Assembly (NCBI GenBank): GCA_018813765.1
Contig: JAHJBC010000004.1
Location: forward strand, 1 to 64,000
DNA: 64,000 nucleotides
DNA from: Gammaproteobacteria bacterium
GTDB lineage: Bacteria; Pseudomonadota; Gammaproteobacteria; Burkholderiales; Gallionellaceae
Reading direction: 5' to 3'
The translations under genes were made by a program, and so were the position numbers. Below, piece after piece: positions 11,604-57,440 of the stretch. The notes under the pieces are model-generated. The model searched no databases. It was given only the letters and a program-made list of their open reading frames with translations, and was not told where the DNA came from. Numbering within the stretch: position 1 is the stretch's first letter; every line of letters begins with the position of its first letter.

Positions 11604-11646
11604 TCTGGTTATGCATGCGAAATAACGCTGTATCCAGAGTCAACTG

Positions 11647-18338: not shown

Positions 18339-18363
18339 GGTATCGACTTGAAAAAGATTGAGA

Positions 18364-22952: not shown

Positions 22953-23095
22953 GTAGTTTTCCGTTTCTATTAAATTGTTCTTGATCGAATCACCCGGTTT
23001 TACGCGCCGCAAAACTGCCTCTCCCGACGCGCCGGGGCGAGATGGTACTTCAAAAAACTTAAGGCTATCAACCTTCTTTATCGGCGCATCCGGAC

Positions 23096-25091: not shown

Positions 25092-25119
25092 TTGTTAATC
25101 TCCCAAACTTCTCTATAAT
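25092..25119 (+). promoter_or_regulatory. Sigma-70-like promoter of the FRD/KOR/HDR operon
   Basis: TTGTTA (25092-25097), 16 nt, TATAAT (25114-25119). A second TATAAT at 25159-25164 has no good -35. The -10 is part of the first of three direct repeats. Confidence 0.5.
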
Positions 25120-25180
25120 CGGCCGCTGCAAAAATTCATAATCGGTCGTGCGAAAATTTATAATTGAACGCACACATTAT
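25115..25180. repeat. Three tandem copies of a 22-23 bp promoter repeat
   Basis: ATAATCGG begins at 25115 and again at 25138, and ATAATTG at 25160. Each is followed by a GC-rich core (CCGCTGC, TCGTGCG, AACGCAC), and the first two by an A-rich stretch. The 23 and 22 nt spacing is about two helical turns, as expected for cooperative regulator sites. Confidence 0.5.
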
Positions 25181-25276: not shown

Positions 25277-26020
25277 ATGGTGAAAACACCGACAGCGGCG
25301 ACTGGTGTTTCTGCGTCCGCGCAGAAAGAAGTTCGTCAAGACGATGCCGCCGGCAACATGATCACGGTCTACATCATGGGCAAAGCCTATGAAGTGCCCG
25401 CCGAAGCGACCATTATGGGAGCCATCGAATACGCCGGCCACCAGATCATTCGCGGGGCCGGATGCCGCGAAGGCTACTGCGGCGCCTGCGCCACCATCTA
25501 CCGCCTGCCTGGCGACTACAAGATCCGCACCGGACTGGCCTGCATGACCATGGCCGAAGATGGCATGACGCTGGCCCAGATCCCCTCGGTTCCCGCCGAG
25601 AAGGCCATCTACGATATCGAAAAACTCAAGCCCGACGTCACCGCCATCCAGCAGATGTACCCGACGGTGTTCCGTTGCGTCGCCTGCGGCACCTGTACCA
25701 AGTCCTGTCCGCAGGGTCTGCAGGTCATGGATTACATCCAGGCCGCCAAGCGCGGCGACATCGCCGAAGTGATGGACCTGTCCTTCGACTGCGTGGTGTG
25801 CGGGCTGTGCATGCTGCGTTGCCCGGCCGAGATCACCCAGCCCCTGATGGGCATCATGGCAAAACGCCTGTATGGCCGTTATCTGCGCAAGGACAGCCCG
25901 GAGCTGGCAGAGCGCGTCAAGGCGGTGGAAGACGGTGTCTATGAGGCGGAATACGCCGAGATGATGAAGATGAGCCGCGAAGATCTGTCGAAGCGCTATT
26001 ACGCGCGCGACTCTGAATAA
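25277..26020 (+). CDS. frdB: Fumarate reductase iron-sulfur subunit (TfrB/FrdB-like, soluble type)
   Basis: A protein of 247 residues. The N-terminal plant-type ferredoxin domain binds a [2Fe-2S] cluster through C63, C68, C71 and C89 (GCREGYCGAC). Two [4Fe-4S] motifs follow, at C134/C137/C140/C144 and C172/C175/C178/C182 (CVACGTC, CVVCGLC). This differs from the sdhB in this window, which keeps the usual SdhB spacing. It resembles the N-terminal part of thiol:fumarate reductase TfrB and the FeS subunit of the soluble NADH-linked fumarate reductase of Hydrogenobacter (family knowledge). It is the first gene of the long operon and would carry electrons from HdrBC to the flavoprotein. Confidence 0.82.
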   Translation: MVKTPTAATGVSASAQKEVRQDDAAGNMITVYIMGKAYEVPAEATIMGAIEYAGHQIIRGAGCREGYCGACATIYRLPGDYKIRTGLACMTMAEDGMTLAQIPSVPAEKAIYDIEKLKPDVTAIQQMYPTVFRCVACGTCTKSCPQGLQVMDYIQAAKRGDIAEVMDLSFDCVVCGLCMLRCPAEITQPLMGIMAKRLYGRYLRKDSPELAERVKAVEDGVYEAEYAEMMKMSREDLSKRYYARDSE

Positions 26021-26032
26021 AAGGGGAAAGCA

Positions 26033-27760
26033 ATGTATCCAGATTACATGAACGAGTCGTTGCGCAAGGTCGAGCAGACTCGTCCCAAGCGCCTGATATT
26101 GGCAAGGAAGACCGAGCCGGTCTATCCGCCGATGAACGCGGAAGAGCGCCAGAAGGTGCTGGAAGGTTTCCACCCCGACTATGAGCCCAGCGCGCGTCGC
26201 GCGGTTTGTGTCGGTCCCAACAAGGGAGAGAAGCTGACCACCGAGGTATCCGACCTGCTGGAATCCCATTCCTGGTTGACCAGCGCACAGGTCGATCTCT
26301 CCAAGCCCGATATCGAGACCGATGTGCTGATCATCGGTGGCGGCGGAGCCGGTTGCAATGCCGCGCTGATTGCGATGCGCGAACACGGCGTGAAATCGGT
26401 GATCGCCACCAAGCTGCGCATGGGCGACGCCAACACCATGATGTCGCAGGGCGGCATGCAGGCCGCGGTCTCGCGCACCGACTCCCCGACCCGTCACTAT
26501 CTGGACGCCATCGGCGGCGGTCACTTCGAGAACAAGCCGGAACTGGTCAAGGCGCTCACCGAGGACGGTCCGGCCGTGGTCAAGTGGCTGGAAGATCTCG
26601 GCGTGTGCTGGGACAAGGAAGAAGACGGTTCGATGAAGGTCATGCACGGCGGCGGCACTTCGCGCAAGCGCATGATGTCCTGCCGCGACTACACCGGCGC
26701 GATGATCATGCGCACCCTGATGGACGAGGTGCGTAACCATCCCGACATGATCACCGTCAAGGAATTCATGCCGGCCGTGGAATTGATCATGGACGACAAA
26801 GGTCAATGCGCCGGGGCCGTCCTGTATAACATGGACAGCGAGGAGTTCTTCACCGTCAAGGCCAAGTCCACCATCATCGCCACCGGCGGCTACGGTCGCC
26901 TGCACATCCGCGGTTACGACACCACCAACCACTACGGCGCCACCGGCGACGGGCTGGTGATGGCCTACCGCGCCGGCGCCAAGTTGATGTACATGGACTC
27001 CGTGCAGTATCACCCCACCGGCGTCTCCTTCCCCGAGCAGATCGCAGGCTTCCTGGTTACCGAGGCGATCCGCGGTGCCGGCGGCCAGCCGCTGAACAAG
27101 GACGGCGAGCTGTTCGTGTTTCCGCGCGAGCCGCGCGACATCGAGGCATCGGCCATCATCCGCGAGTGCGTCGAGAACGGCGGCGGCGTCCCGACCCCGT
27201 CCGGCCGCGAAGGCGTGTGGCTGGATTCGCCGCTGATCGATATGCTGCACGGCGAGGGTTACACCGAAAGACACTTCCCCGCGATGTATCGCCAGTTCAT
27301 CCGCTACGGCATCGACATCACCAAGTTGCCGATGCTGATTTACCCGTCGCTGCATTACCAGAACGGCGGCATCGAGATCAACGAAAAGTGCGAGACCGAC
27401 ATCCCCGGCCTGTATGTGGCAGGCGAGGCGTCCGGCGGCCTGCACGGCCGCAACCGCCTGATGGGCAATTCGGTGCTCGACTACAACGTGTTCGGACTGC
27501 GCGCCGGCAGGTATGCGAGCGAGTACGCCAAGAAGGTCAAGCTGGGCAAGCTTTCCGTGGCCCACCTCGATGCTTACGAGAAACAGTTGAAGGATGCCAA
27601 CGTCAAGACCGATTTGGTCACGCCCATCCTGCTGCCGTCCTACGCGCCCAAGGATGTGAAGAAACGCCAGTTGGTTCGCGGCGGCAATACGCTGCCCGGT
27701 GCGTCGGTGTTGCAAAATCGTTTGCACGACGATGCGTTCAGTCCGGCAGGAGCGAAATAA
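26033..27760 (+). CDS. frdA: Fumarate reductase flavoprotein subunit, soluble, with non-covalent FAD
   Basis: A protein of 575 residues. An unusual N-terminal extension of about 95 residues precedes the FAD motif VLIIGGGGAGCNAALIA. Family hallmarks are MSQGGMQAA, YHPTGVSFPEQIAGFLVTEA and HGRNRLMGNSVLDYNVFG. The histidine that links FAD covalently in SdhA/FrdA (H45 of the sdhA in this window, [10 protein letters not shown]) is N134 here (ANTMMSQGG), so FAD should be bound non-covalently. In E. coli FrdA, loss of this His keeps fumarate reduction and abolishes succinate oxidation. The residue therefore fits a reductive role. It follows frdB by 12 nt. Confidence 0.88.
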   Translation: MYPDYMNESLRKVEQTRPKRLILARKTEPVYPPMNAEERQKVLEGFHPDYEPSARRAVCVGPNKGEKLTTEVSDLLESHSWLTSAQVDLSKPDIETDVLIIGGGGAGCNAALIAMREHGVKSVIATKLRMGDANTMMSQGGMQAAVSRTDSPTRHYLDAIGGGHFENKPELVKALTEDGPAVVKWLEDLGVCWDKEEDGSMKVMHGGGTSRKRMMSCRDYTGAMIMRTLMDEVRNHPDMITVKEFMPAVELIMDDKGQCAGAVLYNMDSEEFFTVKAKSTIIATGGYGRLHIRGYDTTNHYGATGDGLVMAYRAGAKLMYMDSVQYHPTGVSFPEQIAGFLVTEAIRGAGGQPLNKDGELFVFPREPRDIEASAIIRECVENGGGVPTPSGREGVWLDSPLIDMLHGEGYTERHFPAMYRQFIRYGIDITKLPMLIYPSLHYQNGGIEINEKCETDIPGLYVAGEASGGLHGRNRLMGNSVLDYNVFGLRAGRYASEYAKKVKLGKLSVAHLDAYEKQLKDANVKTDLVTPILLPSYAPKDVKKRQLVRGGNTLPGASVLQNRLHDDAFSPAGAK

Positions 27761-27764
27761 GCCC

Positions 27765-28298
27765 ATGAGCCACGTAGACGACAAAGTGATCGAACTGGCG
27801 CGTAATGCGCTCAGCTTCGAGTTCAGTACGGAGCCATTCTTTCGTCACGCAGCTTCGTTGACCCGCAACGAGAGCGGCAAGAAGATGTTCATGCGTCTGG
27901 CGAAGAAGGACGACGAGCGCATGGCCGACCTGACCAGCCTGTTCGGCAAGATCGTGGGCGGGGAATTGTGGCAGAAGCTGGTCGCCGAGGCGGCTGCGCG
28001 CACCACTCCTTCCGCCGTCACGGCGTCGATGGAGGTCGATTTCACCCGACGCGGACACGGTGCCGTCGCCGACGACACCCAGGCACTGCGGCTGGCCATG
28101 GAGCTGGAACGGCGCTTCATCCACGTGTTCAAGGATCTGGCCGTGCTTACCCGCGATGCAGACATCATCGAGTTGGCGGACAAGATCCTCGAAGGCGCGT
28201 TCTTCCGTTACGACAACATGCAGGCGCAACTGGACAGCGTGCTCAATTCCGGCATGTGGCTGGACAGTCCCGAGTTCCGCATGGACGGGAAGTTCTGA
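27765..28298 (+). CDS. Ferritin-like/rubrerythrin-like helical protein within the FRD cluster
   Basis: A protein of 177 residues starting 4 nt after frdA. It reads as a four-helix bundle with acidic/His pairs: FSTEPFFRHAASLTRNESGK, MRLAKKDDERMADLTSLF, AMELERRFIHVFKDLA and GAFFRYDNMQAQLDSV. These resemble the helices of rubrerythrin-type ferritin-like domains, but the full ExxH set is not complete. There is no C-terminal rubredoxin cysteine pair. It could be a diiron oxygen/peroxide scavenger guarding the oxygen-sensitive clusters, or a structural subunit of the fumarate reductase. It has no close named relative that I recognise. Confidence 0.6.
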   Translation: MSHVDDKVIELARNALSFEFSTEPFFRHAASLTRNESGKKMFMRLAKKDDERMADLTSLFGKIVGGELWQKLVAEAAARTTPSAVTASMEVDFTRRGHGAVADDTQALRLAMELERRFIHVFKDLAVLTRDADIIELADKILEGAFFRYDNMQAQLDSVLNSGMWLDSPEFRMDGKF

Positions 28299-28308
28299 GA
28301 GGACAGCC

Positions 28309-28731
28309 ATGAGCACAACGACCCTGCGCATCAATCCGACCGGCCCGTCCGGCACCTTTGTGGCCAAGATCGAAAAGATCAGCGGCCAGAAACTGCTGGC
28401 CTGCTACCAGTGCGGCAAATGCTCCGCCGGTTGCCCGATGGCCGCCTATATGGACATTCTGCCGAACCAGATCATCCGCATGGCGCAGCTCGGCATGCAG
28501 AAGCAGTTGCTGGCCTCGCGCACCATCTGGACCTGCGTGTCCTGCCTGACCTGCAACTCGCGCTGCCCGAAGGACATCCGCATCGCCGAAGTCATCGAAT
28601 CGCTGCGCGAGACCGCATTGCGCAACGGACTGCGCGATGACCGCCTGAACATCTGGGAGATATCCCCGGAGGCGCGCGCCGACCTGCCGCCGATCGCCAC
28701 GATCAGCGCCATGCGCAAACTGACATCCTGA
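28309..28731 (+). CDS. hdrC: HdrC-like 4Fe-4S subunit
   Basis: A protein of 140 residues with two [4Fe-4S] motifs, C32/C35/C38/C42 (CYQCGKCSAGC) and C76/C79/C82/C86 (CVSCLTCNSRC). This is the standard HdrC pattern and length. HdrC passes electrons between HdrA and HdrB in heterodisulfide reductases. Here its neighbours are fumarate reductase and HdrB-like genes, so it probably wires HdrA to the FrdAB module. It lies 10 nt after the ferritin-like gene and 17 nt before hdrB. Confidence 0.85.
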   Translation: MSTTTLRINPTGPSGTFVAKIEKISGQKLLACYQCGKCSAGCPMAAYMDILPNQIIRMAQLGMQKQLLASRTIWTCVSCLTCNSRCPKDIRIAEVIESLRETALRNGLRDDRLNIWEISPEARADLPPIATISAMRKLTS

Positions 28732-28748
28732 TTGGGAAACGAAACGGA

Positions 28749-29648
28749 ATGACGAAACTTATCTACTATCCCGGATGCACGCTGAAGAACGCCGCCAGAA
28801 ACTTCGACGTCTCCACCGTCTCTTCCATGGCGAAACTGGACGTTGAGGTCGAGGAACTCGACCGCTGGAACTGCTGCGGCACGGTGCATGCGCTGGGCTC
28901 GGAGAACATCATGAACCGCGTGGCGCCGGTGACCAACCTGATACGTGTCAAGGAGACGGCGGCAAAGACCGAAGGCATGGCCAACGAATTCATGACCTCC
29001 TGCGCCATGTGCTACAACACGCTCAAGCGCGCCAACATCGACGTGCAGAACCGTCCGGACAAGCTGGAAGTCATCAACGATTTCCTGAATCTGGAAACCA
29101 CCAAGTACGAGGGCGATGTTGAAGTGCGGCACCTGCTCGAATACCTGCGCGACCGCGTCGGCTTCGACCGGCTGGCCGAGAAAGTGACGAAACCGCTCAA
29201 GGGACTGCGCGTGGCCTGTTATTACGGCTGCCTGCTGGTGCGTCCGAAAGAGGTCGCGTTCGACGATGTCGAGAATCCCATGATCATGGAGAACCTGATC
29301 GAGGCACTCGGTGCCACCCCGGTGAACTTCCCGCTCAAGACCGAGTGCTGCGGCGCCTATCACGCGGTGGGCAAGCCCGAGATCATCGCCGACCGTACCG
29401 ACAAGATCCTGGGTTCGGCGAACGACGAAAACATCGATCTGGTGGTGGTGAGCTGCCCGATGTGCGCCTACAACCTGGACTTCCGCCAGGACGATGCCAA
29501 GCAGCTCAATCCGGACCTGAAGAACACGCCGGTGCTGTATTTCACGCAGTTAATGGCGATGGCGCTCGAATGCGGCGATGAGGCCTTGCGTTTCGACCTT
29601 CATCATATCGATCCGCTGCCGGCCCTATCGGCGCGCGGGCTTGCCTGA
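28749..29648 (+). CDS. hdrB: HdrB-like CCG-domain subunit
   Basis: A protein of 299 residues with two cysteine-rich CCG domains: C10 and NCCGTVHALG (C42, C43) with SCAMC, then ACYYGC, ECCGAYH and SCPMC. In methanogen HdrB these bind two non-cubane [4Fe-4S] clusters that split the CoM-S-S-CoB disulfide. In thiol:fumarate reductase the same domain is fused to the FeS subunit. In this operon it is a separate gene five genes into the FRD module. The natural electron partner here (disulfide, or directly FrdB) is not known. Confidence 0.85.
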   Translation: MTKLIYYPGCTLKNAARNFDVSTVSSMAKLDVEVEELDRWNCCGTVHALGSENIMNRVAPVTNLIRVKETAAKTEGMANEFMTSCAMCYNTLKRANIDVQNRPDKLEVINDFLNLETTKYEGDVEVRHLLEYLRDRVGFDRLAEKVTKPLKGLRVACYYGCLLVRPKEVAFDDVENPMIMENLIEALGATPVNFPLKTECCGAYHAVGKPEIIADRTDKILGSANDENIDLVVVSCPMCAYNLDFRQDDAKQLNPDLKNTPVLYFTQLMAMALECGDEALRFDLHHIDPLPALSARGLA

Positions 29649-29659
29649 GGGAGGATGAC

Positions 29660-29923
29660 ATGGCCACTTATTTCAACGATCTCAAACCGCTGCACGGCAA
29701 TGTCTTCGTCAACGAGACCTGGTGCAAGGGATGCGGTTTCTGCGTTCAGTTCTGTCCGACCAATGTGCTGGACACCTCTCCGGAATTCAACGCCAAGGGT
29801 TATCACCCGCCCATCGCCAAGAATCCCGAGAACTGCCGCGATTGCAATTATTGCCAGCTGATCTGTCCCGAGTTTGCCATCTATGTGGAACGGGACGATG
29901 ACCAAAAGAAAGGAAAAGTATGA
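29660..29923 (+). CDS. korD: 2-oxoglutarate:ferredoxin oxidoreductase delta subunit (2x4Fe-4S ferredoxin)
   Basis: A protein of 87 residues with two [4Fe-4S] motifs, C22/C25/C28/C32 (CKGCGFCVQFC) and C59/C62/C65/C69 (CRDCNYCQLIC). It overlaps the korA start by 4 nt, the usual korDABC order. It delivers low-potential electrons to the TPP site of KorAB for reductive carboxylation of succinyl-CoA. Confidence 0.9.
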   Translation: MATYFNDLKPLHGNVFVNETWCKGCGFCVQFCPTNVLDTSPEFNAKGYHPPIAKNPENCRDCNYCQLICPEFAIYVERDDDQKKGKV

Positions 29924-31092
29924 ACGTCAAGACAATGCCCGCCGATCCCAAGGGGGTTGATTCCGGTCCCCACTTCATGGACGGCGACCACGCCCTGGCC
30001 GAGGGTGCGCTGGCAGCAGGTTGCCGCTTCTTCGCGGGTTATCCGATCACGCCCTCGACCGAGACGTTCGAGCGTTTCGCCGAGCGTGCGCCCGAAGTCG
30101 GTGCGATGTTCATCCAGATGGAAGACGAACTGTCCGCCATCGCCGCCAACATTGGCGCGGTGTGGGGCGGTCAGAAGGTGATGACCGTGACCTGTGGCCC
30201 CGGCTTCTCGCTGATGGTGGAAAACATCGGCCTGGCTGCCATGACCGAGACCCCCATGGTCATCTGCAACGTGCAGCGTGCGGGTCCCTCGACCGGCGCG
30301 CCGACGCTGACCGCGCAGCAGGACATGATGCAGGCCAAGTACGGCCCGCACGGCGACAACGCCATGATCGCGCTGTCGCCCGACAGCCCGCAGGAATGTT
30401 TCGACCTCGCCATCGAGGCGTTCAACCTGTCCGAATACTATCGCGTGCCGGTCATCATCCTGACCGACGAGACCGTCGGCCACATGCACGAGAAAGTGGT
30501 GATCCCGCCCGCCGACCAGATCAAGGTCGTGCCGCGCAACCTCTTCACCGGCCCGAAGGAAGATTTCCGTCCCTACAAGTTCAACAGCAAGGGCGGCAAC
30601 CCGATGACGCGCGCGGGCGACGGCTACCGTTTCCATATCACCGGCCTGACACACAATGAAAAAGGCTATCCGGTAGTGACGGCAGAGCAGAACAAGATCG
30701 TCGTCACGCACCTGATGGAAAAGATCAACGGCAATGCCGACGACATCGTGCGTCTCGAAGAAGACCAGATCGAGGGCGCCGATGTGGTGGTGGTGTCCTA
30801 CGGCATCACCTCGCGCATCGCGGTGAAGGCGATCCAGGACGCGCGCAAGGAAGGCATCAAGGTCGGCTCGCTGCGCATGATCACGATCTGGCCGTTCTGC
30901 GAGAAGCGCATCCGCGAACTGGCAGGCAAGGTCAAGACCTTCGTCGTGCCCGAGCTCAACTACGGCCAGATGGTCAACGAGGTCGAGCGTTGCGCCGGCG
31001 GCAAGAGCAAGGTGATCAGCGTCAATCACTGCGGCGGCGCGGTGCATGATCCCGAGGTCATACTGGAAGCAATCAGAAAGGGAAGCAAATGA
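29920..31092 (+). CDS. korA: 2-oxoglutarate:ferredoxin oxidoreductase alpha subunit
   Basis: A protein of 390 residues. It has the pyrimidine-binding motif AGYPITPSTETFERFAE, the acidic QMEDELSAI that activates TPP, and TVTCGPGFSLMVENIGLA. The C-terminal transketolase-like domain includes VVVVSYGITSRIAVKAI. Lengths and motifs match KorA of two-oxoacid:ferredoxin oxidoreductases. The short N-terminal region without a gamma domain shows that gamma is separate (korC). The sequence cannot fully separate 2-oxoglutarate from other 2-oxoacid substrates, but the four-gene order and TCA context favour 2-oxoglutarate. It overlaps korD and korB by 4 nt each. Confidence 0.9.
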   Translation: MNVKTMPADPKGVDSGPHFMDGDHALAEGALAAGCRFFAGYPITPSTETFERFAERAPEVGAMFIQMEDELSAIAANIGAVWGGQKVMTVTCGPGFSLMVENIGLAAMTETPMVICNVQRAGPSTGAPTLTAQQDMMQAKYGPHGDNAMIALSPDSPQECFDLAIEAFNLSEYYRVPVIILTDETVGHMHEKVVIPPADQIKVVPRNLFTGPKEDFRPYKFNSKGGNPMTRAGDGYRFHITGLTHNEKGYPVVTAEQNKIVVTHLMEKINGNADDIVRLEEDQIEGADVVVVSYGITSRIAVKAIQDARKEGIKVGSLRMITIWPFCEKRIRELAGKVKTFVVPELNYGQMVNEVERCAGGKSKVISVNHCGGAVHDPEVILEAIRKGSK

Positions 31093-32342
31093 GTCAGGAT
31101 ATCGCTCAATTCAAGAAGGACAGCCCCATGTCGGGCACCCTGCGCATGGACCGGATGTCGCACATCTGGTGTCCGGGGTGCGGTATCGGCTCCGAAGTGA
31201 ACGCATTTGCCGAAGCAGTCAAGCGCAGCGGCATCGACCCCGACAAACTGGCGGTTGTTTCCGGCATCGGCTGTACCGGCCGCGTTGCGGGCTATGTCGA
31301 TTTCGATTCCATCCATACCACACACGGACGCGCCATCCCGGTGGCGACCGGCCTCAAACTGGCCCGTCCCGACATGAAGGTCGTGGTGTTCAGCGGCGAG
31401 GGCGACCTCACCGGCATCGGCGGTAACCACTTCATCCATGCGGCGCGCCGCAACATGGACATCGTGGTCATCTGCAACAACAACTTCACCTACGGCATGA
31501 CCGGGGGGCAGGTGACGCCGACGACTCCGCATTCGGCGGTTTCCTCGACCACGCCGTTCGGCAACCACGAGTATCCGTTCAATCTGCCGTTCCTGGCGGA
31601 CGCGGCTGGCGCCACCTATATCGCGCGCTGGACCTCGATGCACTCGCGCAACCTGATCCAGTCCATGGAAGAAGCGCTGTCGCGCAAGGGTTTCTCCTTC
31701 ATCGAGATCATCTCGCCATGCACCACGCTTTACCTGCGCCGCAACCGCCTGGGCGACGGCGTCGATGCGCTCCAGTTCTACCAGGAGAACGCGCTGCTCA
31801 AACACGGGGCCGATACCCGCACGCTGGATCTCGACTTCCAGGGCAAGATCACCATCGGCAAATTCGTCGAGAAGGACAAGCCGACCTATATCGAGGCGCT
31901 CGATAATCAATGCGTGAAAGTGGTCGGCGACGACTACGAGCTCTATGGCAAGACCATCCCCGAGCGCGAAGCCGAGGAAAAGGCCGAGAAGGCGCGCGTT
32001 GCCGAACGTCGTGCAGCCGTGCTGGCCGAAGAAGAGAAGGCGAGGGCCAAGGCAGGCGTGGTCAAGGTTTCGGCGAAGATCCCGGTCAAGGCGGGCGCGA
32101 AGAAGGCGGTAGCCAAGACAACGAAAAAGGCGGCTGCCGCGACGACCAAAAAAGTCGCCGCCAAGACCGTGACTGCGAAGAAGACCACCGCGAAAAGCAC
32201 GACGGCCAAGAAAGCGGTCGTGAAGACCGCGAAGAAGGCGGCTCCGAAGGCGAAAGCCAAGGCCGCCGTCAAGAAAGTAGCAGCGAAGCCCGCAACCAAG
32301 AAGGTCGCCGCCAAGCCCGCAGCCAAGAAGACACGCAAGTAG
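31089..32342 (+). CDS. korB: 2-oxoglutarate:ferredoxin oxidoreductase beta subunit with Lys/Ala-rich tail
   Basis: A protein of 417 residues. The first ~285 form a complete KorB: IWCPGCGIGSEV with C28 and C31 for the cluster, the TPP/Mg motif SGEGDLTGIGGNHFIHAARR, and NNNFTYGMTGGQVTPTT. A tail of about 125 residues follows, starting near EREAEEKAEKARVAERRA. It becomes almost pure Lys/Ala/Thr/Val, like histone H1 C-termini and bacterial AlgP/HctB-like proteins, with repeated KKVAAKP units. Normal KorB ends before this tail. The reading frame is continuous with good codon use and korC follows 9 nt later, so the tail is part of the gene. It could bind nucleic acid, membranes or acidic partners. 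Confidence 0.9.
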   Translation: MSQDIAQFKKDSPMSGTLRMDRMSHIWCPGCGIGSEVNAFAEAVKRSGIDPDKLAVVSGIGCTGRVAGYVDFDSIHTTHGRAIPVATGLKLARPDMKVVVFSGEGDLTGIGGNHFIHAARRNMDIVVICNNNFTYGMTGGQVTPTTPHSAVSSTTPFGNHEYPFNLPFLADAAGATYIARWTSMHSRNLIQSMEEALSRKGFSFIEIISPCTTLYLRRNRLGDGVDALQFYQENALLKHGADTRTLDLDFQGKITIGKFVEKDKPTYIEALDNQCVKVVGDDYELYGKTIPEREAEEKAEKARVAERRAAVLAEEEKARAKAGVVKVSAKIPVKAGAKKAVAKTTKKAAAATTKKVAAKTVTAKKTTAKSTTAKKAVVKTAKKAAPKAKAKAAVKKVAAKPATKKVAAKPAAKKTRK

Positions 32343-32351
32343 GAAGAGAAT

Positions 32352-32912
32352 ATGAGCAGCCAGGAAATCAGGTTTTCGGGATTCGGCGGACAGGGCATCA
32401 TCCGCTGCGCCCTCATCACGGGCAAAGCCCTGTCGTTGTACGACGACAAGTTCGCCACCATGACCCAGAGCTTCGGCCCGGAGGCGCGCGGTAGCGCCTG
32501 CGCCGCCCAGCTCGTGGTCTCCGACGACCGCGTGCTCTATCCCTATATCACCCAGCCCGGCATCCTCATGGCGCTGTCGCAGGAAGCTTACGACCTGTAT
32601 TACCCGGAGTTGCCCAAGAACGGCGTGCTCATCGTCGAAGAGGATCTGGTCAAGCTGAAATCCGATCATTCGGACATCCAGTTGCGCCGCGTACCGGCGA
32701 CCCGATTTGCGGAAGAGCTGGGCAACCGTCTGTTCACCAATCTGGTGGCGCTGGGCTTCCTCACTGCCGTGACCAATGTCGTCACCGCGGACGCGATGAA
32801 GCAGGCTTTGCCCGGCCTGGTGCCGGACCGCTTCCTCAAGATCAACATCAAGGCCTTCGAGAAGGGCTACGAATACGGCGTCGAGGCCATGAAAGCCAAC
32901 GGAGGTAAATGA
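32352..32912 (+). CDS. korC: 2-oxoglutarate:ferredoxin oxidoreductase gamma subunit
   Basis: A protein of 186 residues of the POR/KOR gamma family (pyruvate/ketoisovalerate oxidoreductase catalytic domain): IRFSGFGGQGIIRCALITGKA near the start, TQSFGPEARGSACAAQLVVSD, and TRFAEELGNRLFTNLVALGF. The length is typical. It completes a KorABCD complex and overlaps or abuts hdrA. Confidence 0.92.
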   Translation: MSSQEIRFSGFGGQGIIRCALITGKALSLYDDKFATMTQSFGPEARGSACAAQLVVSDDRVLYPYITQPGILMALSQEAYDLYYPELPKNGVLIVEEDLVKLKSDHSDIQLRRVPATRFAEELGNRLFTNLVALGFLTAVTNVVTADAMKQALPGLVPDRFLKINIKAFEKGYEYGVEAMKANGGK

Positions 32913-34864
32913 TCATGACGAAAAAGCGCACAGGCGTATTTGTCTGCCACTGCGGCAACAACATCGCCGCGACCGTCGATGTCAAGAAAGTGGCTGAAGC
33001 GATGTCCACCGAGGAAAATGTCGTTGCCTCGGAGGACTATGTTTACATGTGCTCGGATCCCGGCCAGAACGCGGTGATCCAGTCCATCAAGGAAAACAAC
33101 CTGGACAGCGTCGTCATCTCCTGCTGTTCGCCGAACCTGCACGAGAAGACCTTTCGCGACAATGCCAAGCGGGCAGGACTCAACAGCTTCACCTGCGAGA
33201 TCGCCAACATCCGCGAACAGTGCGCCTGGGTGCACAAGGACAAGGAAGTGGCCACCGAGAAGGCGATCAAGATCTCGCGCAGCGCGGTGCGCCGCGCCGG
33301 TCGCGACCAGGCGCTGGAACCCATCGCCGTTCCCGTCACGCGCAAGGTGCTGGTGATCGGCGGCGGCATCGCCGGCATCCAGGCCGCGCTCGACATCGCC
33401 AATGCGGGCATCAAGGTAATCCTGGTGGAGAAGCTGGCCACCATCGGCGGCCACATGCTGCAACTGTCCGAGACCTTCCCGACGCTGGACTGCTCGCAGT
33501 GTATTCTGTCGCCCAAGATGGTGGACGTATCGCGCCACGAGAACATCGAACTGATGACCTACAGCGAAGTGCAGGAAGTCAGCGGCTCGGTGGGCAACTT
33601 CCAGGTCAAGATCAAGCAGAAGCCGACCTATATCGACCCCGAACTGTGCAAGATCTGCGACGACTGCGCACAAGTCTGCCCGGTGGTGGTGCCGAACGAG
33701 CACGACCTCGGCCTGACCGCGCGCCGCGCCATCCATATCCCGTTCGCACAAGCCATCCCCGCCAGCTACACACTGGACGAGAACGCCTGCCTGGGCCTGA
33801 ACCCCGTGCGCTGCGGCAAGTGCAAGGACGCCTGCGACGTGGGCGCCATCAATTACGACATGCGTCCCAAGATCGTTACCGAGGACGTGGGCGCCATCGT
33901 GGTGGCGACCGGCTACGACCTTTACGCTCAGGAACACATGAACGAACTGGGCGGCGGCAAGATCGACGACGTGCTCGACGGACTCCAGTTCGAGCGTCTG
34001 TGCTCGGCTTCGGGCGCAACCAAGGGCCACGTGCTGCGTCCTTCCGACCGCACCGTGCCCAAGGATGTGGTGTTCATCCAGTGCGTCGGCTCGCGCGATC
34101 CGGCCAACCACTGTGCCTACTGCTCCAAGATCTGCTGCATGTACACCGCCAAGCACGCCAGCCTGTACAAGCACCACGTGCCGGATGGCCGTGCCTATGT
34201 GTTCTATATCGACATCCGCTCCGGCGGCAAGGGCTACGAAGAATTCGTGCAGCGCATCATGGAAGACGACGGCGCCATCTATCTGCGCGGCCGCGTGTCC
34301 AAGCTGTACCGCAAGAACGGCAAGGTCAGGGTGATGGGTACCGACACGCTGACCGGACAGAACGTGGAGATCGACGCCGACATGGTGGTGCTGGCACTGG
34401 CCATGGAGCCGTCGCAGGGCACGGCCGACATCGCCAAGACGCTGAAGATCGGTCGCGACAAGGACGGCTTCCTGGCCGAAGCACACCCCAAGCTGAAGCC
34501 GGTGGAGAGCGTTACCGCCGGTATCTTCCTGGCCGGTTGCGCGCAGGGGCCCAAGGACATCCCGGAAACGGTATCCCAGGCCAGCGCCGCCGCATCCAAG
34601 GTGATCGGCCTGCTGTCGCAACCCACACTGAGTCACGCGCCCACCGTCGCCAAGGTGCGCAACTCGCACTGCACCGGCTGCGAGATGTGCGTGACGGCCT
34701 GCCCGTACAACGCGATCACGCTCGAGAACGGCAAGGCGCTGGTGAACGAAGTGCTGTGCGAAGGCTGCGGCAGCTGCTCCGCCACCTGCGTGCGCGCCGC
34801 CATCGAGGTCAAGAACGCCACGGCGCTGCAGATCAACGAGATGATCGAGGCCTGTCTGGCCTGA
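32909..34864 (+). CDS. hdrA: HdrA-like electron-bifurcating flavoprotein
   Basis: A protein of 651 residues (649 if it starts at ATG 32915, which has better spacing from GGAGG). It begins with the CHCGNN Cys segment, then the FAD motif VLVIGGGIAGIQAALDIANAG. The Cys-rich HdrA core follows (LDCSQCILSPKM, CKICDDCAQVCP, CGKCKDACDVGAI, CAYCSKICC), and two C-terminal [4Fe-4S] ferredoxin motifs (CTGCEMCVTACP, CEGCGSCSATC). HdrA is the bifurcating subunit of heterodisulfide reductases. The MvhD and Flx-like genes just downstream, and HdrC/HdrB upstream, give a complete HdrABC-Flx set interleaved with FRD and KOR. Confidence 0.9.
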   Translation: MIMTKKRTGVFVCHCGNNIAATVDVKKVAEAMSTEENVVASEDYVYMCSDPGQNAVIQSIKENNLDSVVISCCSPNLHEKTFRDNAKRAGLNSFTCEIANIREQCAWVHKDKEVATEKAIKISRSAVRRAGRDQALEPIAVPVTRKVLVIGGGIAGIQAALDIANAGIKVILVEKLATIGGHMLQLSETFPTLDCSQCILSPKMVDVSRHENIELMTYSEVQEVSGSVGNFQVKIKQKPTYIDPELCKICDDCAQVCPVVVPNEHDLGLTARRAIHIPFAQAIPASYTLDENACLGLNPVRCGKCKDACDVGAINYDMRPKIVTEDVGAIVVATGYDLYAQEHMNELGGGKIDDVLDGLQFERLCSASGATKGHVLRPSDRTVPKDVVFIQCVGSRDPANHCAYCSKICCMYTAKHASLYKHHVPDGRAYVFYIDIRSGGKGYEEFVQRIMEDDGAIYLRGRVSKLYRKNGKVRVMGTDTLTGQNVEIDADMVVLALAMEPSQGTADIAKTLKIGRDKDGFLAEAHPKLKPVESVTAGIFLAGCAQGPKDIPETVSQASAAASKVIGLLSQPTLSHAPTVAKVRNSHCTGCEMCVTACPYNAITLENGKALVNEVLCEGCGSCSATCVRAAIEVKNATALQINEMIEACLA

Positions 34865-34889
34865 GAATTTGGAAAATTGAGGAATACAG

Positions 34890-35354
34890 ATGTCCAACGC
34901 ACAAGCTGAAGAAACAAGCAAAGCCGCCCCCGGCGGAGAATTCGAGCCCAGGATAGTCGCCTTGCTGTGCAAGTGGTGCTCGTCCGCCGGCAGCGACCTC
35001 GCCGGTGTCTCGCGCATCCAGTATCCGGCCAACGCGACGCCCATCACCGTGCCATGCTCGGGCAGCGTCTCGCCCATGTACATCCTGTCCGCTTTCAAGA
35101 AGGGAGCAGACGGCGTGCTGGTGTCCGGTTGTCACATCGGCGACTGCCACTACATCGAGGGCAACTTCCTCGCGCGGCGCAAGATCCACCTGGTCAAGGA
35201 ACTGCTCGGCCTGGTCGGGCTGGAGCAGGACCGCTTCCGCATGTCCTGGGTGTCCGCCGCCGAAGGCGCCAAGTACTCACAGGTCATCAAGGACTTCGTC
35301 GCCGACCTGAAGCCGCTCGGCCCGCAAACCAAGTTCAAGGCGGACCGCTCATGA
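34890..35354 (+). CDS. MvhD/FlxD-like [2Fe-2S] electron-transfer subunit
   Basis: A protein of 154 residues of the MvhD family. Conserved cysteines are seen in ALLCKWCSSAGSDLAG (C27, C30), VPCSGSVSP and VSGCHIGDCHYIEGN. MvhD bridges the electron-input module (hydrogenase or Flx) to HdrA. No hydrogenase genes are near; the Flx-like genes that follow give the input. It overlaps the next gene by 4 nt. Confidence 0.9.
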   Translation: MSNAQAEETSKAAPGGEFEPRIVALLCKWCSSAGSDLAGVSRIQYPANATPITVPCSGSVSPMYILSAFKKGADGVLVSGCHIGDCHYIEGNFLARRKIHLVKELLGLVGLEQDRFRMSWVSAAEGAKYSQVIKDFVADLKPLGPQTKFKADRS

Positions 35355-36376
35355 TCAACATCCAGGACATCCGCGATACCGCGCGCGACATGCTCGCGAA
35401 GAACGAGGTGCGTGCCGTCGTCGGCTACCGCCGAGGCACCAACGGCATGCTGGCCGAGCCCGTGGTCATCACCAAGCCGGAGGAGGCAGACCAGCTGGTG
35501 TGGGACCCGACCTGCTTCCACAACCTGTCGCTGTATCTGGTCGAGGACCGCAAGTTCCTCGCCCATGTGCGCGAGAACCCGGGCCAGCCCATCGCCATCG
35601 TGGCCAAGGGCTGCGACTCGCGCGCCTGCGTGGTGCTGATGCAGGAGCACTATTTCAAGCGCGAAGACGTGTACATCATCGGCGTGTCCTGCGAAGGCAG
35701 CGGCGTGCTGAACGAGAACAAGATCTCGGCGCAGAACATCCGCGCGACCGATGTCAAGTTCGACGGCGACGACTACGTGTTCACGACACGCGCCGGCGAG
35801 AAGCGCGTGCCGGCCAAGGAACTGATGGCAGACCGCTGCATGGAATGCCGCCAGCCTTATCCCAAGGAGCACAACAAGGTGTTCGGCGAGGACAAGAGCG
35901 GACGCAACTATGCCGAGCCGTTCGCCGCGCTGAAGAAGTTCGAGGAGCGGGACCCGGTCGCGCGCTGGGAATACTGGGAACGCCAGTTCGACCGCTGCAT
36001 CCGCTGCTACGCCTGCCGCTCGGTGTGCCCGATGTGCTACTGCGACGAGTGCGTGGTGGACAGCACCAGTTTCCCGGTGACCGGGCAGACCACCGCCGAG
36101 GAGAAGGCCAACCGCGTACGCTGGATCGAGCGTTCCGCCGAGCGTGCCGAGAACATCACCTATCACATGACGCGCGCGCTGCATCTGGCCGGACGCTGCA
36201 TCGATTGCAACGAATGCGAGCGTGTGTGTCCGGTCAACATCCCGCTGCGCCTGCTCAACAACAAGATGGAACGGGAAGCGCGCGAACAGTTCGGCTACGA
36301 GCCGGGGGCAAGCATAGGCGCACCGGCGCTGGTCGCTTCCTTCCTCGACAACGATCCAGGCAAATTCATCAGGTAA
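35351..36376 (+). CDS. FrhB-like/4Fe-4S protein of the Flx module
   Basis: A protein of 341 residues. The N-terminal half is like the F420-hydrogenase beta (FrhB) family (VAKGCDSRACVVLMQEHYF, DRCMECRQPYP). The C-terminal half has two ferredoxin-type Cys groups (CIRCYACRSVCPMCYCDEC and CIDCNECERVCP). Similar proteins occur as FeS subunits of FlxABCD-HdrABC NADH-linked complexes in sulfate reducers (family knowledge). Start ATG 35351 overlaps the MvhD-like stop; the longer open frame upstream is a shadow. Confidence 0.82.
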   Translation: MINIQDIRDTARDMLAKNEVRAVVGYRRGTNGMLAEPVVITKPEEADQLVWDPTCFHNLSLYLVEDRKFLAHVRENPGQPIAIVAKGCDSRACVVLMQEHYFKREDVYIIGVSCEGSGVLNENKISAQNIRATDVKFDGDDYVFTTRAGEKRVPAKELMADRCMECRQPYPKEHNKVFGEDKSGRNYAEPFAALKKFEERDPVARWEYWERQFDRCIRCYACRSVCPMCYCDECVVDSTSFPVTGQTTAEEKANRVRWIERSAERAENITYHMTRALHLAGRCIDCNECERVCPVNIPLRLLNNKMEREAREQFGYEPGASIGAPALVASFLDNDPGKFIR

Positions 36377-36380
36377 CGCC

Positions 36381-37415
36381 ATGCAAAAGATCTTAGGTAA
36401 AAAACAGCTGGGCGAGTGGATCGCCGCATTGGGCGACCACAAGGCCTTCGCACCCGCCGTGGAAGACGGCATCTGGGGCTACCACCCGGTCAAGGGCGAG
36501 GTCAGCCTCGACTATCCCAACACCATTCAGCCGCCCAAGGACTTCTCCTTCCCGCAGCGCGAAGTGTTCTTCTCGTTCGAGCAGATCAAGGGCCAGCCGC
36601 CGAAGCTGACGCAAAAAATCCCGCAGACCCAGCAGGTCGCGGTGTTCGGCGTGCGTCCCTGCGACGGCGCGGGCAAGGTGCGCATGGACACGGTGTTCAA
36701 CGATGAGTTCGTGGACAACTACTACAACGCACGCCGCAGCGGCGTTGCCTATGTGGGACTGGCCTGCAACGAGGCGCCGGGCAACAACTGCTTCTGCAAG
36801 TCGGTGGGCGGATCGCCGGTCGGTACCGAGGGCATGGACGTGCTGATGACCGACCTCGGCGACCGCTACTACGTCAGCGCCGTGACCGAGGCCGGCAAGG
36901 CACTGATGAACGCCGCCGCCAAGCTGTTCACCGAGCCTTCCGCCGATGACCGCAAGCTGGTGGAAAAGACGCACAAGGAAGCCGTCGCGCAGCCGCAGCG
37001 CGAGGTGAAGGATGTGGCCGGTGCGCCCGACAAGCTCAGGGCCAGCTTCGACTCCCCGCTGTGGGAAGAACTGGCCAGGCCCTGCATCGGCTGCGGCGCC
37101 TGCACCTTCCTGTGCCCGACCTGCCACTGCTTCGACATCAACGACGAGATGACCGGATCGTCGCCGATCAAGGGCAACCGCGTGCGCACCTGGGACAACT
37201 GCCAGTTCCCGGACTTCACGATGCACACGTCCGGCCATAACCCGCGCGAGACGCTGGGCACGCGCCTGCGCCAGCGCGTGAGCCACAAATTCCAGTATTT
37301 CCACGACAACTTCGGCATGCCGCAATGCACCGGTTGCGGCCGCTGCATCACCGAATGTTCGGTGGGGATCGATATCATCAATGTCGTCAACAAGGTAACC
37401 GAACATGTCGGATAA
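36381..37415 (+). CDS. 4Fe-4S dicluster protein of the Flx module (AsrA/hydrogenase-beta-like)
   Basis: A protein of 344 residues. It contains VFGVRPCDGAGKV and VGLACNEAPGNNCFCKSVGG in the first half, and two C-terminal [4Fe-4S] motifs (CIGCGACTFLCPTCHC and CTGCGRCITEC). This layout matches the anaerobic sulfite reductase A / hydrogenase beta-like subunits that pair with an FAD/NAD subunit encoded downstream. It overlaps that gene by 11 nt, so the two proteins probably form a tight complex. Confidence 0.82.
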   Translation: MQKILGKKQLGEWIAALGDHKAFAPAVEDGIWGYHPVKGEVSLDYPNTIQPPKDFSFPQREVFFSFEQIKGQPPKLTQKIPQTQQVAVFGVRPCDGAGKVRMDTVFNDEFVDNYYNARRSGVAYVGLACNEAPGNNCFCKSVGGSPVGTEGMDVLMTDLGDRYYVSAVTEAGKALMNAAAKLFTEPSADDRKLVEKTHKEAVAQPQREVKDVAGAPDKLRASFDSPLWEELARPCIGCGACTFLCPTCHCFDINDEMTGSSPIKGNRVRTWDNCQFPDFTMHTSGHNPRETLGTRLRQRVSHKFQYFHDNFGMPQCTGCGRCITECSVGIDIINVVNKVTEHVG

Positions 37416-38229
37416 CATCTACCTGCCGGAACTGGCCAGGATCACCCATATCAAGGAAGAGATCGGCGGCGAACGCGCGATCAAGACCTACCGCATCGAG
37501 CCGGTCGAGGGCAAGGCTTTCGAGCACACCTGCGGCCAGTGCGCCATGCTGTCGCTGTTCGGCCGCGGCGAGATGATGATCTCCATCGCCTCCTCGCCGC
37601 TGATCAAGGAATACAAGCAGTTCAGCATCATGCGCGTGGGCCGCGTCAGCGCGGCTTTCCACGAACTGGTGGTCGGCGACATCGTCGGCATCCGCGGTCC
37701 CTACGGCAACAGCTTCCCGGTCGACGACTGGAAGGGCAAGAACCTGGTGTTCATCGGCGGCGGCGTGGGTCTGGCCCCGATCTGGCCGGTGATCCAGACG
37801 GCATTGGCGCAGCGCGACGACTTCAAGGACATCACCGTGTTCTACGGCGCACGTTCGCCAACCGACCTCATGTACAAGGCGGAACTGGAGCACATGCGCA
37901 GCCAGGCAGACATCAAGCTTTCGGTCGACAAGGCCGACGACTCGTGGAAGGAGTACCGCGGTTTCGTGCCCGCCAACGTGCTGGACAAGAAACCATCGCC
38001 CAACAACACCATCGCCATCACCTGCGGCCCTCCGATCATGATCAAGTTCGTGATCCAGAACCTGCAACAACTCGGCTTCAAGGACGAGCAGATCTACACC
38101 ACCATCGAGAACAAGATGAAGTGTGGTCTGGGCAAGTGCGGGCGCTGCAACGTGGGCAAGGACTACGTGTGTACCAAGGGGCCGGTATACTCGTGGGCCG
38201 AGTTGAAGCAACTGCCGGAAGAATATTAA
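37405..38229 (+). CDS. FAD/NAD(P)-binding oxidoreductase (FlxA/AsrB-like)
   Basis: A protein of 274 residues of the ferredoxin-NADP reductase superfamily. The FAD motif region is seen around YKQFSIMRVGRVSAAFHEL, the pyridine-nucleotide loop is VFIGGGVGLAPIWPVIQTAL, and the C-terminal [2Fe-2S] motif is MKCGLGKCGRCNVG followed by YVC. It is the expected entry point for NADH or NADPH electrons into the Hdr complex. It is the last gene of the 14-gene run that begins at frdB. Confidence 0.88.
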   Translation: MSDNIYLPELARITHIKEEIGGERAIKTYRIEPVEGKAFEHTCGQCAMLSLFGRGEMMISIASSPLIKEYKQFSIMRVGRVSAAFHELVVGDIVGIRGPYGNSFPVDDWKGKNLVFIGGGVGLAPIWPVIQTALAQRDDFKDITVFYGARSPTDLMYKAELEHMRSQADIKLSVDKADDSWKEYRGFVPANVLDKKPSPNNTIAITCGPPIMIKFVIQNLQQLGFKDEQIYTTIENKMKCGLGKCGRCNVGKDYVCTKGPVYSWAELKQLPEEY

Positions 38230-38447: not shown

Positions 38448-39728
38448 ATGAATATCAGTGGAATGCTACACGGCGCGCCGTTACTCAAGATCGTTGATTT
38501 TCCGGTTTCCGAGGTACTCGGACCGGAAGCCAGCGATCATGAGATACACAGCCTGATCGAGAAATGCGGTTCGGTCTTCGTCAAACCCATCTTCAAGGGC
38601 GGCGTGGGCAAGAAGGGCAAGTCCGGCCTGCTGGGCCGTGCCAAGGACCTGAAGACCGCGCTGGCCGAGAAGGAGCGCCTGTATTTCGCCGAGCACAAGT
38701 CCGGCAATGCCGTGTACAAATCGCGCGGCGTCACGTTCGAAGGCGCCGTCCCCGCCGAATTTGAAATCTACTTCTCGCTTACCGATTCCACCCGTTATCG
38801 CGCTCCGGTCATGACGCTCACGCACCACGGCGGCATGGACATCGAAGAACTGGACAAGACCCAGATCATCGAAGTGCCGTTCGATCCGCTGACCGGTCTC
38901 AAGTCCTTCGTCATCTCCAACGCGCTGACCGACCTGGGTGCGCCCAAGGAGATCATCTCCCCGCTGGTGCAACATCTGCCGAAGTTGTGGGAGTTGTTCC
39001 ACCACTACGGCATGTCCACGCTGGAACTCAACCCGATCCGCATGATGGAAGGCCGCAACGGCTCGCTGATCCCGGTGGCCTGCGACTTCAAGTGCGGCTT
39101 CGACCGCGACGATCCGCGCGTGAGCCGCCTGAACCTGCCGGTCGACCTGTTCGTCACCGAAGCCAACGATTTCGAGCAGGAGATCAACGAACTGCGCACC
39201 TACCAGGGCCAGAGCGACGTTTACGTGATCAACGAGAAGGGCACCATCCTCGCCCCGACCTTCGGCGGCGGCGCCAACTCGCTGGTCACCGAAGTGCTGG
39301 GCAATGACGCCATCATCTCTTCCGACTTCGGCGGCAATCCGCCGTACGAGAAGATGTACGACGTGATGCGCATATGCCTCAAGTATTACCTCAAGCAATC
39401 GAACGTGCTGTTCGTGATCGGCGGCAAGGCCAACAACACCGACATCTTCGTGACCTTCCGCGCCATGGCAGATGCGCTGCGCGATTACTACAGCGAACAC
39501 GGCCCGACGCCGCTGTATGTGGTGATCGGCCGCGGCGGCCCGCAGGTGATCCGCGGCATGGGCGTGTTCAAGGACGTGCTCGATTCCTTGCGCATCCCTT
39601 ACCGCATCTTCGGCTTCGATTCCGCGATGACCGACGTGGTGAACTACGCGCAGGAAGCGAACCGCTGGATGAAAGAGGGCGGCCGCGCCGAAGTGGCGAA
39701 AGTGCTGGGACTGCCTCCGGACGCATAA
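38448..39728 (+). CDS. aclB: ATP-citrate lyase subunit B (ATP-grasp / succinyl-CoA synthetase beta-like)
   Basis: A protein of 426 residues. An ATP-grasp fold like the SucC/AclB family is seen: FVKPIFKGGVGKKGKSGLLG, the metal-binding STLELNPIRMMEG, and the CoA-ligase flavodoxin-like region (FGGGANSLVTEVLG, VVIGRGGPQVIRGMG). It pairs with the large subunit 109 nt downstream. Order aclB-aclA is the same as in Chlorobium. The gene begins a new transcription unit after 218 nt of untranslated DNA, with AGAGGAAA before ATG 38448. SucC is an alternative by fold, but the citrate-synthase domain in the next gene decides for ATP-citrate lyase. Confidence 0.88.
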   Translation: MNISGMLHGAPLLKIVDFPVSEVLGPEASDHEIHSLIEKCGSVFVKPIFKGGVGKKGKSGLLGRAKDLKTALAEKERLYFAEHKSGNAVYKSRGVTFEGAVPAEFEIYFSLTDSTRYRAPVMTLTHHGGMDIEELDKTQIIEVPFDPLTGLKSFVISNALTDLGAPKEIISPLVQHLPKLWELFHHYGMSTLELNPIRMMEGRNGSLIPVACDFKCGFDRDDPRVSRLNLPVDLFVTEANDFEQEINELRTYQGQSDVYVINEKGTILAPTFGGGANSLVTEVLGNDAIISSDFGGNPPYEKMYDVMRICLKYYLKQSNVLFVIGGKANNTDIFVTFRAMADALRDYYSEHGPTPLYVVIGRGGPQVIRGMGVFKDVLDSLRIPYRIFGFDSAMTDVVNYAQEANRWMKEGGRAEVAKVLGLPPDA

Positions 39729-44898: not shown

Positions 44899-47136
<2,238 letters not shown>

Positions 47137-51120: not shown

Positions 51121-51132
51121 TGGGAAAACAAC

Positions 51133-52058: not shown

Positions 52059-52076
52059 CTGAAAGGAAGGTGGATC

Positions 52077-56242: not shown

Positions 56243-57440
<1,198 letters not shown>

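Follow-up and report, generated by a model that had tools for sequence, protein, structure and literature searches.

What is gained by encoding a fumarate reductase, Hdr and Flx proteins, and a 2-oxoglutarate:ferredoxin oxidoreductase (Kor) in a single run of genes? We asked this of positions 25277 to 38229 in a 64,000-nucleotide stretch (the window) of contig JAHJBC010000004.1, from a Gallionellaceae genome (assembly GCA_018813765.1). The answer that we consider moderately probable is that this operon specifies a fumarate reductase that draws on NAD(P)H, splits the electrons by flavin-based bifurcation, and works for the reverse tricarboxylic acid (rTCA) cycle. From the gene content, gene order, motifs, and co-occurrence that we observed, we infer a complex with the following electron path, direction, acceptors, and coupling. 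NAD(P)H would hand two electrons to FlxA, and these would pass through FlxB/FlxC and MvhD to the flavin adenine dinucleotide (FAD) of HdrA. One electron would then take a high-potential branch from HdrA through HdrC, HdrB, and TfrB to TfrA, with two turns reducing one fumarate to succinate. The other would take a low-potential branch from HdrA to ferredoxin, either KorD itself or a soluble ferredoxin, and KorABC would spend the reduced ferredoxin on carboxylating succinyl-CoA to 2-oxoglutarate. One fumarate per turn of the cycle would yield two reduced-ferredoxin equivalents, apparently the need of one Kor turnover. Taking standard potentials of -0.32 V (NADH), +0.03 V (fumarate), and -0.42 to -0.50 V (ferredoxin), we estimate that the bifurcating reaction would yield a net -48 to -33 kJ per fumarate across that range of ferredoxin potentials.

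The run from tfrB to flxA consists of 14 open frames, all on the + strand and separated by -11 to +25 bases, which agrees in count and coordinates with an earlier note on this DNA. Four-base overlaps join korD/korA, korA/korB, korC/hdrA, and mvhD/flxC (with flxC taken from the ATG at 35351). The gene names are backed by profile matches, and because the same order recurs in dozens of loci, it is not a product of chance. Most of the earlier naming also stood (HdrC, HdrB, KorDABC, HdrA, MvhD, and Flx). What had been called frdBA is closest to methanogen-type TfrBA, with scores below the cut-offs; one of the 14 members is a rubrerythrin-like protein; and MvhD and the three Flx genes together make up a FlxABCD set. 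With MvhD counted as FlxD, all seven subunit genes of FlxABCD-HdrABC are present in the window.

The central question was whether HdrA has the features of a bifurcating enzyme. The hdrA gene (32909 to 34864) encodes a flavoprotein with an FAD domain and with inserted and C-terminal ferredoxin domains. It matched the HdrA2 model in a profile search (E 8e-242) and aligned end to end with a solved archaeal HdrA (E 1.5e-196). K409 and E356 of Methanothermococcus HdrA have been put forward as markers of bifurcating HdrA, according to the relevant part of PMC12054007. Their equivalents in the window, K415 and E362, were kept in all 57 aligned rows, window included. The absence of a bifurcating flavin environment, which the earlier note had named as a ground for rejecting its proposal, was thus not what we found. 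The equivalents of HdrA Cys386, Cys399, Cys403, and Cys404, which we take to have a role in cluster binding, were likewise kept in 57 of 57 rows. These rows include three distant HdrA loci (L041, L046, and L051). In all alignments, we left out proteins shorter than 80% of the window protein, hits with coverage below 70%, identical proteins, and repeat copies of the same genome. With both published marker residues present, HdrA is predicted to be a bifurcating flavoprotein, as had been proposed for it.

The two smaller Hdr subunits are complete in their cluster motifs. HdrC (28309 to 28731; 140 residues, two [4Fe-4S] clusters) keeps its 8 cysteines in 48 to 49 of 49 rows. HdrB (28749 to 29648; 299 residues), a homolog of a solved archaeal Hdr chain, has two complete CCG motifs for non-cubane [4Fe-4S] clusters, and the 10 cysteines of these motifs were kept in every one of 52 rows.

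We then considered whether TfrBA could be the fumarate-reducing end of the high-potential branch. TfrA (26033 to 27760) is a flavoprotein of 575 residues with an N-terminal extension of about 95 residues. Its best family is methanogen TfrA (350.8 bits against a cut-off of 718), followed by NadB (289.8 bits against a cut-off of 452.75). By alignment, its fumarate site is intact: the catalytic His, Glu, Arg, His, and Arg were kept in 44, 44, 44, 43, and 43 of 44 rows, respectively, with both misses in the fragmentary L059. All 44 rows have Asn where the His of SdhA binds FAD covalently, and the window's own SdhA, 21 kb downstream, has His. FAD is therefore predicted to be non-covalent in TfrA. 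Two of the rows are paralogs of 43 to 45% identity (L060 and L061); these also carry the Asn, so it is not special to this operon. In the Escherichia coli enzymes, non-covalent FAD allows fumarate reduction and hampers succinate oxidation, and the reductive direction is therefore favored for TfrA. Unlike succinate dehydrogenase and membrane fumarate reductase, the system lacks not only the covalent-FAD His but also an anchor subunit: no Sdh_cyt membrane anchor was found among the genes at 25277 to 38229, and a separate sdhC lies at 48541.

TfrB (25277 to 26020; 247 residues) has an N-terminal [2Fe-2S] motif and two [4Fe-4S] motifs, and its 12 cluster cysteines were kept in 45 to 46 of 46 rows. 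The 488-residue methanogen TfrB model spans three window proteins, with TfrB matching its residues 19 to 187, HdrC 125 to 222, and HdrB 263 to 486. This single-chain model offers, at the level of sequence, a fusion precedent for HdrC and HdrB handing electrons to TfrB. In contrast to the methanogen protein, the window TfrB has no CCG domain, and HdrB, a separate protein here, would therefore have to supply that part.

A second TfrA family occurs in relatives, represented by L060 and L061 and by hits of 42 to 46% in the survey of the host family. A TfrB-like gene adjoins the paralog in L060 and L061, and no Hdr-Kor gene lies within 4.5 kb. Another TfrA-like place (34%) is on host contig C11.

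The entry side of the system is formed by four genes. FlxA (37405 to 38229), a FAD/NAD(P)-binding subunit with a [2Fe-2S] motif, is the predicted NAD(P)H entry site, as had been claimed for this operon. FlxB (36381 to 37415) is a sulfhydrogenase-beta/AsrA-like iron-sulfur (Fe-S) subunit. MvhD (34890 to 35354), the putative Fe-S adaptor between Flx and HdrA, matched the FlpD model (E 4.5e-48) and keeps 5 cysteines in 57 of 57 rows. FlxC (35351 to 36376) gave only Fe-S motifs in Pfam, two of the [4Fe-4S] type. Its AlphaFold model (predicted local distance difference test [pLDDT] score, 75.1) best matched the folds of 7bkb_E (E 2.8e-12, template modeling [TM] score 0.61) and 8rvu_E (E 1.2e-11, TM score 0.63), with TM scores taken by query length. 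Both chains are formate dehydrogenase beta subunits by profile search (E 2e-28 and 1.3e-23, respectively). Judged by its model, FlxC looks like an FdhB-type subunit that would feed MvhD-HdrA.

All four subunits of KorABCD are encoded, with POR_N, thiamine pyrophosphate (TPP)-binding, gamma, and ferredoxin domains; specificity for 2-oxoglutarate is predicted from sequence. KorD (29660 to 29923) is the two-[4Fe-4S] ferredoxin subunit and keeps 8 cysteines in 51 of 51 rows. KorA (29920 to 31092) reached 533.5 bits against a curated NCBIfam cut-off of 411 for the 2-oxoacid:acceptor oxidoreductase alpha subunit. They are followed by the TPP-binding beta subunit KorB (31089 to 32342) and the gamma subunit KorC (32352 to 32912), whose stop overlaps the hdrA start.

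If TfrBA and Hdr work together, do their genes keep company elsewhere? A scan of public genome contigs with HdrA gave 52 loci, and with loci from the host family we classified 62 distinct hdrA loci. Once the window and four distant HdrA loci that lack Kor (L041, L043, L046, and L051) are set aside, the set comprises 57 relatives, some cut by contig ends so that Kor and Flx are not visible in all. Every one of the 57 was accompanied by tfrA or tfrB, the opposite of the constant separation of Hdr/Flx genes from frd that the earlier note had counted as refuting. In 41, tfr is in the same locus: upstream of hdrA with acl in 26, upstream without acl in view in 3, and downstream without acl in 12. 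These include tfrA in 40 cases; in L026, at the end of a contig, only tfrB is seen. Most of the remaining 16 relatives lie at contig ends, and all 16 assemblies have TfrA elsewhere, at an identity of at least 70% in 15 and of 52% for L033. For L023, TfrA is split into two pieces, and one of these is at 64%. TfrA-like hits turned up for the four distant loci as well (54% in L051 and 35 to 40% in the other three), and a loose hit of this kind therefore says little by itself. Among 158 genomes of the host family, HdrA at 78% or more was found in 24, TfrA at 86% or more in 23, and both in 22, counts that are uncorrected for kinship and in which linked genes travel together. The exceptions were HdrA alone in G093 and G120 and TfrA alone in G045.

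Gene order was also informative. The kor genes lie between hdrB and hdrA in every locus showing all of them. In L020, L022, and L023, the module begins at hdrB and a tfrB-tfrA-hdrC block is found elsewhere (L054, L058, and L059), in L020 and L022 on the same contig as acl. Since hdrC travels with tfrBA in these genomes, the fumarate reductase is tied to Hdr. The L039 genome has a tfrBA-hdrC block too (L108), with the start of its module off the contig.

The setting of the module, which the earlier note had missed, is consistent with a role in the rTCA cycle. The + strand run extends past 38229, with wider gaps of 109 to 306 bases, into aclA and aclB for ATP-citrate lyase (ACL; 38448 to 39728 and 39838 to 42540, the latter the large subunit), acn for aconitase (42847 to 44793), and idh for a monomeric isocitrate dehydrogenase (44911 to 47136). 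AclA is 72 to 73% identical to that of tubeworm-symbiont loci, and it is called type II on this similarity only. Divergently, on the - strand, lie a citrate-lyase-beta-like HpcH/HpaI gene (23778 to 24782), pntA and pntB for the alpha and beta subunits of NAD(P) transhydrogenase (21369 to 23012 and 19944 to 21359), and a two-subunit pyruvate carboxylase, with a biotin carboxylase subunit (18364 to 19782) and a carboxyltransferase/biotin subunit (PYC_OADA; 16494 to 18548). The HpcH/HpaI gene has the same position in 5 of 20 loci compared (L002, L003, L006, L037, and L040). Because ACL, aconitase, isocitrate dehydrogenase, and pyruvate carboxylase adjoin the module, rTCA carbon fixation is its likely use in the host genome. 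The host genome contains one large subunit of RuBisCO. On sequence grounds, the block is a set of rTCA genes in a Gallionellaceae organism that also encodes a Calvin-cycle carboxylase.

After idh, at 48541 to 57441, comes an oxidative TCA set with sdhC (48541), sdhA, sdhB, citrate synthase, and the E1 and E2 components of 2-oxoglutarate dehydrogenase. An oxidative TCA operon also directly follows the reductive block in the same-genus genomes L093 and L095; in the stretches L094 and L096, none was seen.

Five genomes of the host genus have the same hdrA, and the host is placed in Gallionellaceae by this kinship. Two are labeled Sideroxydans sp. (L004 and L040), one uncultured Gallionellaceae (L037), one Nitrosomonadales (L002), and one Gammaproteobacteria (L003). 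Of the 34 genomes in the genus, only 6 have the module, identified by close HdrA and TfrA, which makes it accessory. As far as sequence comparison goes, this patchy spread suggests that the genes are gained or lost together.

Several observations weigh against a bifurcating fumarate reductase. We found no biochemical data or assay for any member in the literature, and TfrA and TfrB score under every curated cut-off listed, a list that for TfrA holds the best 25 of 43 families. The expression account of PMC11636981 gives tfrAB of the Riftia symbiont as the exception to the common expression pattern of the cluster. In L008, tfrBA is on the same contig but further downstream, past acl, beside acn and pycA (L107), and hdrC is still with hdrB; the L007 genome has the same acn-tfrB-tfrA-pycA block (L104). 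Both CCG motifs of HdrB are complete throughout its alignment, as a disulfide substrate would need. DsrC scored above its cut-off in 11 of 11 genomes with the module that were tested and in 1 of 14 controls, which were not phylum matched. Four DsrC-family genes are present in the host genome itself: both C-terminal cysteines are found in one, only the last in another, and neither in the remaining two. Finally, the host genome has three RnfC genes, another possible source of ferredoxin. The idea that hdrC always moves with tfrBA was rejected on the L008 and L007 arrangements.

The points on HdrB and DsrC lead to the strongest alternative, which we regard as possible although clearly less probable than direct coupling. 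Flx-Hdr would bifurcate between ferredoxin and a DsrC-type disulfide carrier, and reduced DsrC, another thiol, or another donor would feed TfrBA separately, with fumarate coupled only indirectly. A DsrC-like route is one option given in PMC11636981. We had expected lineages without ACL to lack DsrC, which would have removed this alternative; the presence of DsrC in all 11 genomes contradicted that expectation, and the disulfide carrier was therefore kept and raised. DsrC with both C-terminal cysteines was found in Coatesbacteria (L114), Aminicenantes (L115 and L116), and Acidobacteriota (L117), and in L114 and L115, it is near a DsrK/HmcF-like CCG protein. However, the count has no phylum-matched background, and the DsrC homolog of Bacteroidales (L113) has a single C-terminal cysteine though the module there is complete. 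In addition, since the window TfrB is without the CCG domain of the TfrB model, TfrBA alone is unlikely to oxidize thiols.

In L114 (1843 to 4141), L115 (2883 to 5187), and L116 (3755 to 6059), DsrC heads a trio with proteins of about 210 and about 444 residues. In L114 and L115, the shorter has no Pfam hit, and the longer is DsrK/HmcF/TmcB-like.

A simpler explanation, which we judge improbable, is that no bifurcation takes place: the operon would encode a plain NAD(P)H:fumarate reductase, and Kor would draw its ferredoxin from Rnf or elsewhere. The three RnfC genes above the cut-off and the transhydrogenase genes beside the operon fit this idea, and Hydrogenobacter reportedly has a soluble NADH-dependent fumarate reductase. 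The RnfC genes are on contigs C2 and C12, with none on the module contig (C10). A plain fumarate reductase does not account for a complete HdrA with marker residues and cluster cysteines, nor for the constant place of kor between hdrB and hdrA.

Could the module instead run oxidatively, oxidizing 2-oxoglutarate and succinate and confurcating to NADH? Flavin-based bifurcation is reversible in principle, and an oxidative TCA gene set is next door. Nevertheless, we consider this very unlikely: with ferredoxin at -0.5 V, standard potentials give the reaction a net cost of about +33 kJ, the predicted non-covalent FAD of TfrA would disfavor succinate oxidation, ACL adjoins the module, and succinate dehydrogenase, citrate synthase, and oxoglutarate dehydrogenase are separately present. 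Least credible of all is that TfrA is another FAD_binding_2 enzyme, such as one like aspartate oxidase, in an operon for NAD synthesis: NadB is its second-best family and has the same active-site residues in the alignment, but the TfrA model scores higher and the NadB cut-off is unmet, tfrB is adjacent in loci showing both sides, the context is that of the rTCA cycle, and contig C11 holds another TfrA-like place.

We next asked how closely the bifurcating module is bound to ACL. In Aminicenantes, an Acidobacteriota metagenome-assembled genome (MAG), Bacteroidales, and Coatesbacteria, the order is hdrCB-korDABC-hdrA-mvhD-flxCBA-tfrBA, with no adjacent acl. Among the 8 flanking frames searched in L027, L035, and L053, the neighbors were unrelated or unrecognized. 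AclB was not found in any of nine searched genomes lacking acl beside the module (seven from these lineages and two Proteobacteria, L005 and L012), several of which may be incomplete MAGs. Eight gave only hits resembling succinyl-CoA ligase within the first 314 residues and one gave none, whereas two genomes with acl gave full-length hits. The 13-gene core thus appears, from gene content, not to be tied to ACL. We raise tentatively, as a proposal that we would not yet back, that tfrBA-hdrCB-korDABC-hdrA-mvhD-flxCBA is a portable 2-oxoglutarate synthase with its own ferredoxin engine, independent of ACL and of autotrophy. In it, NAD(P)H electrons would be bifurcated between fumarate and KorD within one supercomplex, without free ferredoxin, in several phyla.

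The link between fumarate reduction and 2-oxoglutarate synthesis that the earlier note had drawn is supported by an intact fumarate site and Kor in the same gene run; its novelty is not. In 2019, PMC6315080 described, in its account of rTCA clusters, type II aclAB, korABCD, tfrAB, flxABCD-hdrABC, acn, idh, mdh, pntAB, and rnf. The carriers named there are tubeworm symbionts, Thioflavicoccus mobilis, and the MAG RIFOXYD12_FULL_61_37, and the interspersed proteins are proposed to form a complex that shuttles electrons directly to 2-oxoglutarate:ferredoxin oxidoreductase and fumarate reductase. In 2024, PMC11636981 took up the same layout and added, in its expression part, evidence of operon-like behavior for the genes of the Riftia symbiont. 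The window shares with the 2019 cluster tfrAB, rbr, hdrBC, korABCD, hdrA, flx, aclAB, acn, idh, and pntAB in one cluster, with korABCD between hdrA and hdrBC. The named MAG is our locus L009, with 50 to 84% identity per matched protein. The window differs in its Gallionellaceae host and in the citrate-lyase-like gene, pyruvate carboxylase, and oxidative TCA operon that adjoin. No close match to the window acn was found in L009 or the tubeworm loci compared. Furthermore, rnfABCDGE is not integrated in the window, whereas the pertinent section of PMC6315080 names Rnf among the integrated complexes; we do not count Rnf as a defining feature of the cluster.

More distant systems share parts of the module. 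HdrA and HdrB are homologous to solved chains of archaeal Hdr complexes (5ODC, 7BKB, and 8RVU), and FlxC resembles the E chains of the Fdh-Hdr-Fmd (7bkb_E) and Elp-Hdr (8rvu_E) complexes. Both the electron donor and the CoM-S-S-CoB acceptor of the archaeal complexes differ from those of the window system. FlxABCD of Desulfovibrio and other anaerobes feeds HdrABC from NADH as the window proteins would, with DsrC as the proposed high-potential acceptor; no Tfr or Kor is described there, in the portion of PMC6687939 devoted to it.

The gene layout is therefore known and the mechanism both plausible and already proposed, and the Gallionellaceae genome is a new host of a biochemically unproven system. 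Neither a Gallionellaceae carrier of the cluster nor an Aminicenantes carrier of the module was found in print in the open-access literature. Our contribution lies in the host family, the conservation of the marker residues, the resemblance of FlxC to FdhB, the constant presence of tfr, the ACL-free form, and the DsrC caveat. Should the reduction of fumarate cover the cost of ferredoxin, the rTCA cycle would be cheaper than in the textbook account and could run on NAD(P)H as the reductant, with consequences for how bacteria that have two CO2-fixation pathways employ each one. The ACL-free form in other phyla suggests that the unit is a more general device. The conserved residues and split arrangements of the survey make the 2019 hypothesis directly testable.

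One member of the run falls outside this scheme. The protein of 177 residues encoded at 27765 to 28298 had no Pfam match at E 1e-6. Its AlphaFold model is helical (pLDDT, 82.9), and its ferritin-like fold matches included none at E of 0.001 or below, so we ascribe to it a ferritin-like tendency only. A rubrerythrin (rbr) is marked in the same kind of cluster in PMC6315080; in contrast to it, the window protein has partly lost the diiron ligands, with K/D/R in helix 2 and G/A/R in helix 4. L024 keeps the ligands, and their loss is partial in other same-genus loci. The window KorB also differs from the 2019 cluster in its long, Lys/Ala-rich, histone-H1-like C-terminal tail, which occurs in several Gallionellaceae and related loci and not in the listed tubeworm-symbiont KorB (327 to 328 residues).

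A promoter scan returned 6 promoter-like sites where 4.4 would be expected. Two lie before tfrB, at 25092 to 25164, and we do not treat the sites as evidence. Besides korA, the host genome has two POR_N places, one inside a frame of 1226 residues. On contig C12 (5617 to 6303 and 10542 to 11831), a frame of 1641 residues with a POR_N domain lies about 4 to 5 kb from an RnfC gene, and it may encode an Rnf-linked enzyme of the pyruvate:ferredoxin type. In the window, at 8808 to 16401 and thus upstream of the rTCA genes, a gene of the phosphoenolpyruvate synthase/pyruvate phosphate dikinase type is followed by one for a protein of 1584 residues with BcrAD/BadFG and DUF2229 domains, of the CoA enzyme activase family.

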